Part shown: piece after piece, positions 16,930-20,573 of the stretch | Position numbering within the stretch: the first letter of the stretch is position 1 | How the letters are laid out: each line of letters opens with the position of its first letter | From: Sulfolobus sp. S-194 | GTDB lineage: Archaea; Thermoproteota; Thermoprotei_A; Sulfolobales; Sulfolobaceae | NCBI RefSeq assembly: GCF_012222305.1 | Contig: NZ_CP035730.1 | Location: forward strand, 1,426,001 to 1,490,000 | Reading direction: 5' to 3' | DNA: 64,000 nucleotides | Program-made: the position numbers and the translations under genes | Notes under the pieces: generated by a model | What the model was told of the DNA's origin: nothing | Database searches by the model: none | Seen by the model: only the letters and a program-made list of their open reading frames with translations

Positions 16930-18272
16930 CAGTATGGGAATCTCTTTTTTCTCGTAAAAAACGAGATGAATGAAATTCAGAAAAATCTAATTTATGCTAA
17001 TTTTTTGTAGAAAAGTTTGTATAAGCGAGGGCGGACCTAATCATATGCCTAAGACAAAATGGGTCAAGCAAACCAATAGGGACTTCACCAGATTTGCCTC
17101 AAATTAATCTACTCAACTCTCCCTATAATACTTTTCCCTAAACAACTCCTCAAGGCCTTACTTAAAGCTAGGGGAACATACTTGACAAGACTAGGAAACG
17201 AGGGAAGAAGAGCCTTGAGAACCTTGAACCACATCAATGTTGAAGACGTGAGAAAAGCAATCAAGGAATTGGGAAAGAAAGCATTAAGAGAAACTAGGGA
17301 TAGAAGAGTAACAATAGACCTACACTCAATACCACAATACCACAAGGATAAAACACTATTAAGTAGACCAAATAAGGGGACTAGCTGGGGACTAGCCCAA
17401 GCAGCAATCTTCCTACTAGGAAGGAAAAAAAGCCTTCCTAGAAGTCCTACCAATAACAATAAAGAGAATAGCCGAGGACTTCAAAAAAGTAATGCAAGTC
17501 CTTAAAGAAGAACTGGATAAAGAGGGGCTTAGACTTGTCATGGTCTTTGCAGATAGGGAGTTTGCTGTATGTGATCAAGTTTCTCTTGGAGTTGGGTGTG
17601 GACTTTGTTATAGCTGCTAAGGTTCAAATGTATAGGAAGTATGAGAAGAGGCTTAAGCAAGTTGATGTTAATTACGCCGGGGTGAGGTATGTTGGTTTCT
17701 TGTGTGTGAGGCATGATTCTGGTGCTTATTTAATTGTGCTTAAGAGGGGGGATGGTAAGGTTGTGGGGTTTTTGATTAGGGGTGAGGTTGATGTTCAAGG
17801 GGCTGTTGTTTTGGCTGAGATGTATAGGTGTAGGTGGGGTGTTGAGACTGCTTTTCGTTCTTTGGAGGAGTTTAGGATTAGGAGTAGGAGTTGTGATGTT
17901 AGGAAGGAGTTGGTTCTCGTTCTTCTTTCTTATTTTCCCTTGAATGTTTGGTTTTTTGTTAGTTCTTGGAGAAGGGTTAAGTTGCGGAAGTTTTGCGAAT
18001 TGAAAGGCTTGAGTTATCGCGTAGTTCAAGAGGTAAAAGGGGTAGGGCAAGGGTGTTATCAAGGAAGTGTTTTTCCCTTAAGTCCGGCTGATTCTATGCT
18101 TCCTCTTCTGTCGGCGTTGAATAAATTGTATATCTCTAGTATATTCAAGAGAAAATATTATTTATTAGTTATAATAGGCTGAAATATATAATATTTTATC
18201 GTAAATTACTGTGTTAAATTCAATTTATTCTAAGTTTTAATTTATCTTGCAATAAAAGAGATTCCCATACTG
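16930..18272 (+). mobile_element. IS4-family-like insertion sequence, dead (1343 bp)
   Basis: 19-bp terminal inverted repeats CAGTATGGGAATCTCTTTT at 16930-16948 and their inverse at 18254-18272. AAGA occurs directly outside both ends (16926-16929, 18273-18276), a 4-bp target duplication. The inside is one degraded DDE transposase gene. Size and signature suggest the ISC1359-like IS4 group of Sulfolobus, but I cannot confirm the name. The left end also has the hairpin CTCGTAAAAAACGAG. Confidence 0.85.
17045..18182 (+). pseudogene. DDE transposase pseudogene (at least three frameshifts)
   Basis: The original start is ATG at 17045 (MPKTKWVKQTNRDF). The frame is lost near 17103, again in the A-run near 17425, and again near 17565. 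The three acids are still visible in separate frames: first D in TIDLHSIPQYHKDKTLL, second D in MVFADREFA, and the glutamate in YRCRWGVETAFRSLEEF, which matches the Y-(2)-R-(3)-E signature of IS4-type enzymes. A functional protein cannot be made from it. Confidence 0.85.
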
Positions 18273-18446
18273 AAGATGATAAAAATGGAAACTCATGAGT
18301 AATAGGATGAGATAATATTATGAAATTACTTTTAACTAAGATTTAATATAAATTTATTCAACCCTGGAGAGGTTATTTAAGGATTATTACTTAATTAAAT
18401 AAACAGAGGAGGGAGGAGATTGAAGTACCAGATGGCTTATGGAATA

Positions 18447-18531
18447 CTTTGACTAAATTATAACTCTCTCGATATGGATATCTAGCAATTTCCATAATTG
18501 CACTAGCCTTTGACTAAATTATAACTCTCTC
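18447..18531. CRISPR. Two-repeat, one-spacer CRISPR-like unit (speculative)
   Basis: An exact 24-bp direct repeat CTTTGACTAAATTATAACTC(TCTC) occurs at 18447-18470 and 18508-18531, separated by 37 bp of unique sequence. Repeat length and spacer length are those of Sulfolobales CRISPR arrays. No cas gene is near, no further repeats exist, and the repeat is not one I know. It may be an orphan or decayed array, or only a repeated operator near the VapBC operon. Confidence 0.3.
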
Positions 18532-18556
18532 ATCATTCCTCGAGTGTCTTACAATT

Positions 18557-18994
18557 CTATATAATGTACCTTATGTTTACCACCTTCTTTCCCAATTTTA
18601 GCAAAGTTATGTTATCAAAATCGTTATCAAAACTCAGTAGGTACTCGCTCCTTAGCTTGTCCATTGAGGAAAGTGTAGTGCAATCCGTAAAACTTAACTT
18701 CTTCTCATACTTAACTAGGTAATTTATAGCATGAATGAAAACTTCCCAGTCAATAAAAAACATGTAAAGCTCTCCATCCTTTACCTTTTCAAGAATTATT
18801 GATGCTACTTTAATTGCGTAATCCTTGTTCACGTGATATATTAGAAAGGTTATTAGCTCATCAAAGACGTAATCGGTAATTACGGCCTCGTATTCTCTTA
18901 CTTTCTCGGAGAGTTTCAAAGCTTCACTATGATGCTTATCGTTTTTGTTTAGATAAGCGATGAAATATGAGGTATCTAGGAGGAGCTTAACCAT
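18557..18994 (-). CDS. vapC: VapC-type PIN-domain ribonuclease toxin
   Basis: 145 residues, a full PIN domain. Acidic catalytic residues are visible: the first D in KLLLDTSYFIAYLN, a central E in DYVFDELITFL, D in LSFTDCTTLSSM, and D in LLSFDNDFDNI. These coordinate Mg2+ for RNA cleavage, usually of tRNA or rRNA. Its start overlaps the end of the antitoxin gene by 8 bp, the normal arrangement of archaeal VapBC modules. All active-site positions look intact. Confidence 0.9.
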   Translation of the reverse strand: MVKLLLDTSYFIAYLNKNDKHHSEALKLSEKVREYEAVITDYVFDELITFLIYHVNKDYAIKVASIILEKVKDGELYMFFIDWEVFIHAINYLVKYEKKLSFTDCTTLSSMDKLRSEYLLSFDNDFDNITLLKLGKKVVNIRYII

Positions 18995-19223
18995 AAACTA
19001 CATCATCAACCCTTTCCGATGAATCTTCCCTCATCTCAGTTATTAATTTTTTGAACGCTGTCATATCCAACGGCTTCTTTCTCCTGTTTTCATAAAGGGT
19101 TATTAGGAACTCAATTACGTCATTTAAACTAACCTCCTCACCTCTTTCAGCTTTAAGTTCTCCGGCAATCTTTATCAACTCCCTTTTCACCTCATCAGTA
19201 ACCTTAATTGTAGTATAAGCCAT
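18987..19223 (-). CDS. vapB: VapB-type antitoxin
   Basis: 78 residues. The N-terminal YTTIKVTDEVKRELIKIAG is the ribbon-helix-helix/VapB DNA-binding fold common in Sulfolobales. The C-terminal part (KKPLDMTAFKKLITEMREDS) is the region that would wrap the toxin. It precedes vapC and overlaps it by 8 bp. Autoregulation at the promoter just upstream of 19223 is expected for the family; TATACTTTGTATA at 19228-19240 is a palindrome-like site that fits a dimer operator. Confidence 0.85.
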   Translation of the reverse strand: MAYTTIKVTDEVKRELIKIAGELKAERGEEVSLNDVIEFLITLYENRRKKPLDMTAFKKLITEMREDSSERVDDVVYG

Positions 19224-19334
19224 AAGTATACTTTGTATACCTAGTTTAAAAGGTTACTTATTATAGTACCCTAATTTCCTATAACGAATCTTTTTAATTA
19301 CCGCCGTAAAACGCTTTATTAGACTCACGTCAAT

Positions 19335-19443
19335 GTGTGGATCTCTTTTCTTGCGTAAAAAACGAAATTCAGAAAAAGTCTCTAGTAAACACTAATTTTT
19401 GTAGGATAATTTTGTATAAGAGAGAGCAGACCTAACTATATGC
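19335..19443 (+). mobile_element. Solo left end of the same IS (relic)
   Basis: GTGTGGATCTCTTTTCTTGC at 19335 and the 90 bp after it align with the left end of the IS at 16932-17047, including the GTAAAAAACGA hairpin arm, AATTCAGAAAAA, CTAATTTTTTGTAG-like and GTATAAG segments, and the region around the transposase start codon (ATATG). No transposase follows, so only the 5' end remains. Confidence 0.7.
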
Positions 19444-19601
19444 ATGGAGAGCCAGACAGGGGGTATGAGGACAAGGATTTATATGAAATATCACGAAACC
19501 CTATGAAAACCAAACCCCCTCTAATTTTCCGTCCTTTTTAATTCTTAATTATTTTTGGTTTATCTCAGACCAAAATAAATATTAGATAGAGAGGGGGAGA
19601 T
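19444..19601. promoter_or_regulatory. Promoter region of coiled-coil nuclease gene
   Basis: Contains AATAAATATTAG about 25-30 bp before the ATG at 19602 and a strong purine run (GAGAGGGGGAGAT) just before it, which can act as a Shine-Dalgarno site. A 33-codon frame at 19441-19542 has no support. Confidence 0.4.
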
Positions 19602-20573
19602 ATGATTATGGAAGATGAGATTGCAAAGTGGTTTAATGAAAGTATTTTAAGGATAGTTGAGAAATTGAAGAGTGGACAAGAATTAACAAGTACTGAGAGC
19701 TATATTGCTTTAACATATATTTATGCGCAATCTTTTGAGAAGAAGCTAACAGAGTTAGAAAGGAATTTAAGAGATGAAATAAGAAAAACCAGAGAGGAAT
19801 TACTAGTAAACGATGATAAGGTAAAGAAAGAATTGATAGAATATGTGGATAAAACGAAAAAGGAGATAATCGAATACGTTGACAGAGTAAAAAGTGAGCT
19901 ATTAAATAATGATGAGAGAATAAAGAAAGAACTACTAGAAAATGATGAAAGAATAAAGAAAGAATTGATAGAATATGTGGATAAAACGAGAAAAGAACTT
20001 CTGGAAAATGATGAAAGAATAAAGAAAGAACTACTAGAAAACCAAGAGAAAACAAAGAAAGAACTACTAGAAAACGATGAAAGAATAAAGAAAGAATTGA
20101 TAGAATATGTGGATAAAACGAGAAAAGAACTTCTGGAAAATGATGAAAGAATAAAGAAAGAACTATTGATCAGCGATGAAAATATAAAGAAAGAACTTGA
20201 AGTTAAAATTGAGGAAGTGAGGAGTGAAGTGTCGGCTGTTAGGAGTGATTTAGGGGTTCTTACTGAATCCTTTTTTGTTACTAACTTTTTGAGTAGTATT
20301 AAAGAGGCGGGAGAGAAGATAGCCAACGTGTATAGGCAATATGAGACTTCTGCTGGTGAGGTTGATGCTCTCGTTGAGACTGATAAAGCTGTTTACATTA
20401 TCGAGGTTAAGTTTAAGGCTGAGATTAAGGATGTGGATGCTTTACTTACTAAAGCTAAGGAGGTTGAAAAGGAATATCAAGGGAAAAGGATTATTCCAGT
20501 TCTTACGGGACCAAAGATCAGTAAAGCTGTGAGAGGTTATGCCAAAGGTTTAAATATTATGATATTTCAGTAG
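19602..20573 (+). CDS. Coiled-coil protein with C-terminal PD-(D/E)XK-like domain (DUF3782 type)
   Basis: 323 residues. Residues about 45-205 form a long highly charged coiled coil with 11-residue units such as RKELLENDERI and KKELIEYVDKT, some repeated exactly. From about 245 on is a small alpha/beta domain: AGEVDALVETDKAVYIIEVKF supplies the D...ExK core of PD-(D/E)XK nucleases, followed by RIIPVLTGPKISKAVRGYA. Proteins of this build (DUF3782) are frequent in hot archaea, often next to mobile DNA. The nuclease core looks intact. Target and partner are unknown. The ATG follows a good ribosome binding site. Confidence 0.75.
   Translation: MIMEDEIAKWFNESILRIVEKLKSGQELTSTESYIALTYIYAQSFEKKLTELERNLRDEIRKTREELLVNDDKVKKELIEYVDKTKKEIIEYVDRVKSELLNNDERIKKELLENDERIKKELIEYVDKTRKELLENDERIKKELLENQEKTKKELLENDERIKKELIEYVDKTRKELLENDERIKKELLISDENIKKELEVKIEEVRSEVSAVRSDLGVLTESFFVTNFLSSIKEAGEKIANVYRQYETSAGEVDALVETDKAVYIIEVKFKAEIKDVDALLTKAKEVEKEYQGKRIIPVLTGPKISKAVRGYAKGLNIMIFQ
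19944..20165 (+). repeat. 132-bp tandem repeat inside the coiled-coil region
   Basis: The segment beginning GATGAAAGAATAAAGAAAGA at 19944 recurs 132 bp later near 20076, nearly identical for about 90 bp. It encodes a 44-residue (4 x 11) block, so the coiled coil probably grew by duplication and its length may vary between strains. Confidence 0.75.

Follow-up and report, generated by a model that had tools for sequence, protein, structure and literature searches.

A 37-bp piece of rudiviral DNA enclosed by two identical 24-bp sequences in the chromosome of Sulfolobus sp. S-194 very probably arose when Cas1-Cas2 integrated a spacer off target in a single event, which would make the locus a 'neo-CRISPR' with one spacer. 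The locus lies in a 64,000-nt stretch of the genome (the window, positions 1,426,001 to 1,490,000 of NZ_CP035730.1) and is built from an exact 24-mer, CTTTGACTAAATTATAACTCTCTC, present in two copies with 37 bp between them. The original prediction, made from the letters alone, had pointed to such a repeat and spacer with the geometry of Sulfolobales arrays, placed between an IS and a toxin gene. All of this is borne out: IS DNA lies to the left and vapC to the right, and with one spacer and no cas genes close by, the unit has a CRISPR-derived look. Its parts and neighbours, in window positions, are as follows.

17000-18273, + strand: multi-copy IS with a split DDE transposase, the left neighbour (PF01609 in the ORF at 17535-18182; the left limit of 17000 is approximate and set by eye)
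18342-18446, + strand: left flank, single-copy intergenic DNA without a leader, no match elsewhere
18447-18470, + strand: left copy of the putatively duplicated 24-bp target (repeat 1), exact match to 18508-18531
18471-18507, + strand: 37-bp spacer from a rudivirus gene (SIRV2 gp33/ORF488 family), virus matches up to 35/37
18508-18531, + strand: right copy of the putatively duplicated 24-bp target (repeat 2), exact match to 18447-18470
18532-18556, + strand: 25-bp gap separating the unit from the stop codon of vapC
18557-18994, − strand: vapC, PIN-domain toxin gene, a neighbour outside the unit (PF01850, E 3.9e-13)
18987-19223, − strand: vapB-like antitoxin gene, a neighbour (PF02697, E 4.9e-4, below the curated cut-off)

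Cas1-Cas2 attaches each end of a prespacer to a different strand of the target, with one repeat length between the two sites, and the repeat is then doubled during repair; the same chemistry at a target that is not a repeat would give a repeat-length duplication around a foreign spacer. In the origin that we propose, Cas1-Cas2 carrying a rudiviral prespacer would have attacked unique intergenic DNA downstream of vapC, at sites 24 bp apart on the two strands, instead of a leader-repeat junction, and gap filling would have doubled the 24 bp to leave repeat-spacer-repeat. Less surely, the integrase may have been that of the type I-D system. What would be looked for in such a locus is largely present: the insert derives from a mobile element (35/37 to rudivirus gp33-family genes, with controls at 29/37 or less), the duplication is as long as the native repeats (24 bp against 24 bp), the insert falls within the native spacer length range (37 nt), and its viral source carries a flank, GTT, that fits the PAM of a resident system, although the local I-D spacers support GTN weakly. 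The target does not resemble a native repeat (at most 11/24), a likeness that off-target sites in E. coli data usually have and that is usual rather than defining. From the standpoint of a canonical array, a recurrent repeat family and a leader beside the first repeat are both missing.

The biochemistry of a related integrase is compatible with such an event. Purified S. solfataricus Cas1-Cas2 is described as integrating all round a plasmid in vitro (PMC5815122; cf. PMC4574026); according to the former, the preferred base is C or G at +1, and at −2 it is C. The two junctions of the unit, read on opposite strands, have G and C at +1, in keeping with this preference, and A and T at −2, so that the preferred C is absent at both. 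In S. solfataricus, integration specificity is said in the same source (PMC5815122) to need host factors and a long leader, which leaves room for integration errors.

Identification of the insert as viral comes from several comparisons. Searched with blastn against 50,697 phage records, the 85-bp unit matched 14 records (including duplicates of one virus), all of them from rod-shaped viruses of Sulfolobales. The matched gene belongs to a conserved family comprising SIRV2 gp33 (ORF488), SIRV1 ORF486 and SBRV1 ORF32-468; SIRV2 gp33 itself has no Pfam match. In ungapped comparison the spacer is identical at 35/37 positions to isolate V3 and to an IMG/VR contig (L026), at 34/37 to SIRV1 variant XX, and at 32/37 to SIRV2, SBRV1, SIRV8 and SIRV9; no perfect protospacer was found. 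Against the same viruses (0.86 Mb of sequence with some redundancy, both strands), the best score was 29/37 for 299 random 37-mers from the window and 26/37 for 200 shuffled versions of the spacer. When the 488 native spacer entries (6 of the 9 entries of the small third repeat family duplicate I-A spacers) and the stray spacer were compared with these viruses, the stray spacer gave the second-best E-value. The original prediction had proposed a search of viruses and plasmids and had counted the lack of a spacer match against a CRISPR reading; the viruses gave a strong match, whereas the plasmid collection gave only chance matches (E about 6) among the matches listed (20 of 48).

The virus-derived piece is the 37-bp insert, and identity ends at its edges, since it drops in both flanking 24-mers: in five viruses, 10-12/24 positions agree with the left 24-mer and 2-5/24 with the right. 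One BLAST alignment, to V3, continued into the left copy for 15 nt (10/15 identities), which we take as chance in AT-rich DNA because a left copy of viral origin would be expected to match no worse than the spacer. The insert lies entirely inside viral coding DNA; the coding strand of the virus corresponds to the minus strand of the insert, which reads ASAIMEIARYPY in frame with the viral protein. When 4 kb around the unit was used as a query against the phage collection, only the unit matched at E 0.001 (4 records).

The flanking 24-mer, by comparison, appears to be a private sequence. The genome-wide repeat search suggested with the original prediction returned two copies only: allowing up to three mismatches, neither the window nor the rest of the 2.79-Mb genome has a third. 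Chance does not supply such a pair, with 0 matches in 100 dinucleotide shuffles. In 614 kb of this genome (the window plus 28 further stretches, known arrays excluded), exact direct repeats of at least 20 bp with a start-to-start distance of 45-84 were found at three loci besides the unit: in a coiled-coil gene, at a pair of tRNAs and, as one 20-bp pair, at 2,213,965. The nine inserts examined from other close direct repeats in these 614 kb had no convincing virus match. The 20-bp pair just named (insert 40 bp) and an exact 19-bp direct repeat at genome position 231131 (insert 39 bp) lie outside arrays with CRISPR-like spacing and without a convincing match in the viruses searched. Hairpins at the 24-bp target were no better than in shuffles, an Rfam search of 17000-19700 gave no match up to E 1, and the unit's spacer was absent from the arrays of 30 other genomes (degenerate pattern, up to three mismatches).

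Two main CRISPR systems reside in the sampled part of the genome that our array inventory covers. The I-A-like arrays (repeat CATAATCCTCAATGGAATTGAAAG), found at 112-162 kb, have 80, 69, 74 and 46 repeats; their label rests on the repeat, the CCN flanks and general knowledge of Sulfolobales. The I-D arrays (repeat GTTTTAGTTTCTTTTTGTTTTTAC) have 66, 7 and 144 repeats, at 195-199, 217.8-218.2 and 219-228 kb. Both repeats are 24 bp long and unlike CTTTGACTAAATTATAACTCTCTC in sequence. Among eight repeat-resemblance comparisons altogether, the best of the 24-mer with this genome's repeats was 11/24 (I-D), which 8% of random 24-mers reach, and that with an S. solfataricus repeat, itself absent from this genome at up to three mismatches, was 12/24 (2.6% of random 24-mers). 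The likeness of CTTTGACTAAATTATAACTCTCTC to native repeats is thus no better than chance. Genes between the I-D arrays matched Cas1d, Cas6, Cas10d, Cas7d, Cas5d and Cas3d, and others III-B cmr (PADLOC typing of 10 of the 15 listed ORFs). The I-D cas5d gene (csc1, about 208.2-208.9 kb) is split over two reading frames, its pieces covering profile positions 3-58 and 121-213 of 221; the I-D interference complex may be impaired, or there may be an assembly error at cas5d.

Two smaller repeat loci were also seen. At genome positions 176332-176555, four 25-bp repeats belonging to another family (GATGAATCCTCAAAGGGATTGAAAC-like) form a small, degenerate array; no larger array of that family was found in the stretches examined. 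A lone I-D-like repeat at 126580-126603 is followed by DNA resembling the flank of the large I-D arrays and is perhaps an empty or collapsed array.

Between the two resident integrases, that of type I-D is favoured over I-A, though not proven, because 37 nt is a common spacer length in I-D and rare in I-A and because GTT precedes the protospacer. Spacers of exactly 37 nt make up 52/214 in I-D against 2/265 in I-A, favouring I-D about 32-fold. The matching viral loci (26, several being one virus) reduce, at an identity of at least 26/37, to 16 distinct variants, whose plus-side flank is GTT in 13 and GCT in 3, the three closest all having GTT; these variants are related, and 13/16 therefore represents fewer than 13 independent cases. 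On the other side the flank is ATA in 10, GTA in 5 and ATT in 1, and CCN occurs on neither side in the 16 variants. Two remote relatives among the 26 loci (23/37 and 25/37), set apart from these 16, have the plus-side flanks CTA and CCT. Among native I-A spacers, CCN was present in 5/5 with a virus match below E 1e-5, and five weaker I-A matches were without it.

GTN is given as the PAM of the I-D system of S. islandicus LAL14/1, and as the predicted PAM for one subfamily of Sulfolobales systems (PMC10577407, PMC4390879). Locally, native I-D spacers show GTN in 1/3 matches at E < 1e-5 and in 1/6 when all matches up to E 1e-3 are counted. With the flank taken on the inferred leader side, the best match (35/38, STIV) carries GTC, and GTN fits none of the other five, of which two are below E 1e-5; taken on the opposite side, GTN fits 1/6. 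Two queries made of I-D array DNA, neither of them containing the array of 7 repeats or the final 2 kb of the longest one, matched one virus in the phage collection (STIV, two records) at E 1e-4.

At E 0.001, the 201 bp at 18360-18560 matched no other place in this genome and nothing in 59 relatives, and a query of 18183-19330 against four genomes of the genus gave no other match across 18342-18446. On the vapC side, the 25-bp gap is too short for a leader. The neighbouring IS is clearly repetitive, its part at 18183-18273 having nine further genome copies at 95-99% as well as less similar ones. No empty site was found in the genome collections searched, which hold one genome per species; homology of the vapC locus in two related genomes stops at about the vapC stop. 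Beyond these features, similar stretches at 17000-17050 and 19395-19450 (by eye) flank the region of vapBC and the spacer unit and are probably copies of an IS end. Further on, 19602-20573 is a coiled-coil ORF with in-frame 66-bp repeats, whose C-terminal part, VDALVETDKAVYIIEVKFK, has a nuclease-type look, an impression rather than a database match.

We weighed four other origins against off-target integration. The original prediction had offered an orphan array, and one form of that idea, in which the unit is the remnant of a longer canonical array of a lost repeat family that was cut by deletion or IS activity, would account for the identical 24-bp repeats, the viral spacer and the adjoining IS. 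We nonetheless consider it unlikely: CTTTGACTAAATTATAACTCTCTC is absent at up to three mismatches from 30/30 other genomes of the family and, by exact search, from genome_contigs and viral_contigs (which may leave out the own genome), there is no leader-like copy alongside, and both cas1 genes found are far off, at 142 and 203 kb, with the unit at 1,444 kb, about 1.2 Mb from the nearest. With its 24-mer no closer than 11/24 to the native repeats either, the orphan array of a repeat family did not hold up. Capture of a viral fragment by break repair or by a mobile element, in which case something other than Cas1-Cas2 would have made the 24-bp duplication, could draw on the IS elements nearby and on the direct duplications that insertions can bring, but a spacer-sized insert, a duplication of exactly the native repeat length, a GTN flank adjoining the viral fragment and the wholly viral coding content of the insert make it very unlikely.

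The regulatory mini-array of the original prediction, in the form of a CreA-like RNA acting on the neighbouring vapBC, found no footing in the spacer and would be highly improbable. CreTA systems have CRISPR-repeat-like RNA antitoxins whose spacer-like segment matches the promoter of the adjacent toxin gene, and like them the unit has two repeat-like sequences near a toxin gene, with vapC only 25 bp away. In contrast to CreTA, its spacer lacks a match to the neighbouring operon (best vapBC seed match 6 nt, best ungapped match 20/37, both within shuffles, and nothing better than chance in the window), its repeats are unlike the native ones, and a virus explains the spacer. As to a chance or operator-type repeat with no relation to CRISPR, short two-copy repeats do exist in this genome, as the three other loci of at least 20 bp in 614 kb illustrate; with none expected by chance and an insert that is viral at 35/37, we give this explanation next to no weight.

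Off-target integration by Cas1-Cas2, the reading that we prefer, is already known, and the unit would add another case. Nivala, Shipman and Church (2018) reportedly described off-target integration in vivo together with natural neo-CRISPR candidates, the latter in Yersinia pestis and Sulfolobus islandicus; the locus of our unit may already be listed among them. Those loci are reported to share with the unit a foreign spacer and duplicated, non-CRISPR chromosomal flanks; the unit differs in its rudiviral protospacer, which is identified, in a flank of GTN type and, probably, in a I-D integrase. To our knowledge, natural products of integrase errors seem rarely documented, which is an impression and not a count. 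Elsewhere, non-canonical integration is mentioned in PMC9456107 and PMC11788318, and ectopic events within arrays are described in PMC8047081.

The native I-D arrays resemble the unit in their 24-bp repeats, in spacer length (197/214 spacers are 34-38 nt) and in having some viral targets, and differ from it in repeat sequence, in their 7 to 144 repeats and in the cas genes nearby. The two large I-D arrays also have a common adjoining sequence, taken as the leader, whereas the unit has none. Virus-borne mini-CRISPR arrays are very short, and their spacers match viruses. They occur in Sulfolobales (PMC6858448). Such arrays lie on viruses, whereas the unit sits in the host chromosome, in 4 kb otherwise without a phage match.

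Lacking a leader and native repeats, the unit is probably inert, and we lean towards regarding it as a record or fossil of the proposed event. It could yield crRNA only given read-through transcription and tolerance by Cas6. A working newborn CRISPR locus, in which read-through from vapBC or an upstream promoter would give crRNA against rudiviruses for use by a resident effector, III-B or (if intact) I-D, seems to us quite unlikely.

How CRISPR arrays are born away from existing arrays is an open question. For the unit, the virus family can be named, the flank is PAM-like and the spacer length points to one of two resident integrases, and these features make it a usable test of where and how often archaeal Cas1-Cas2 errs. 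If the newborn-locus reading were true, it would mean that arrays can start from single misplaced integrations.
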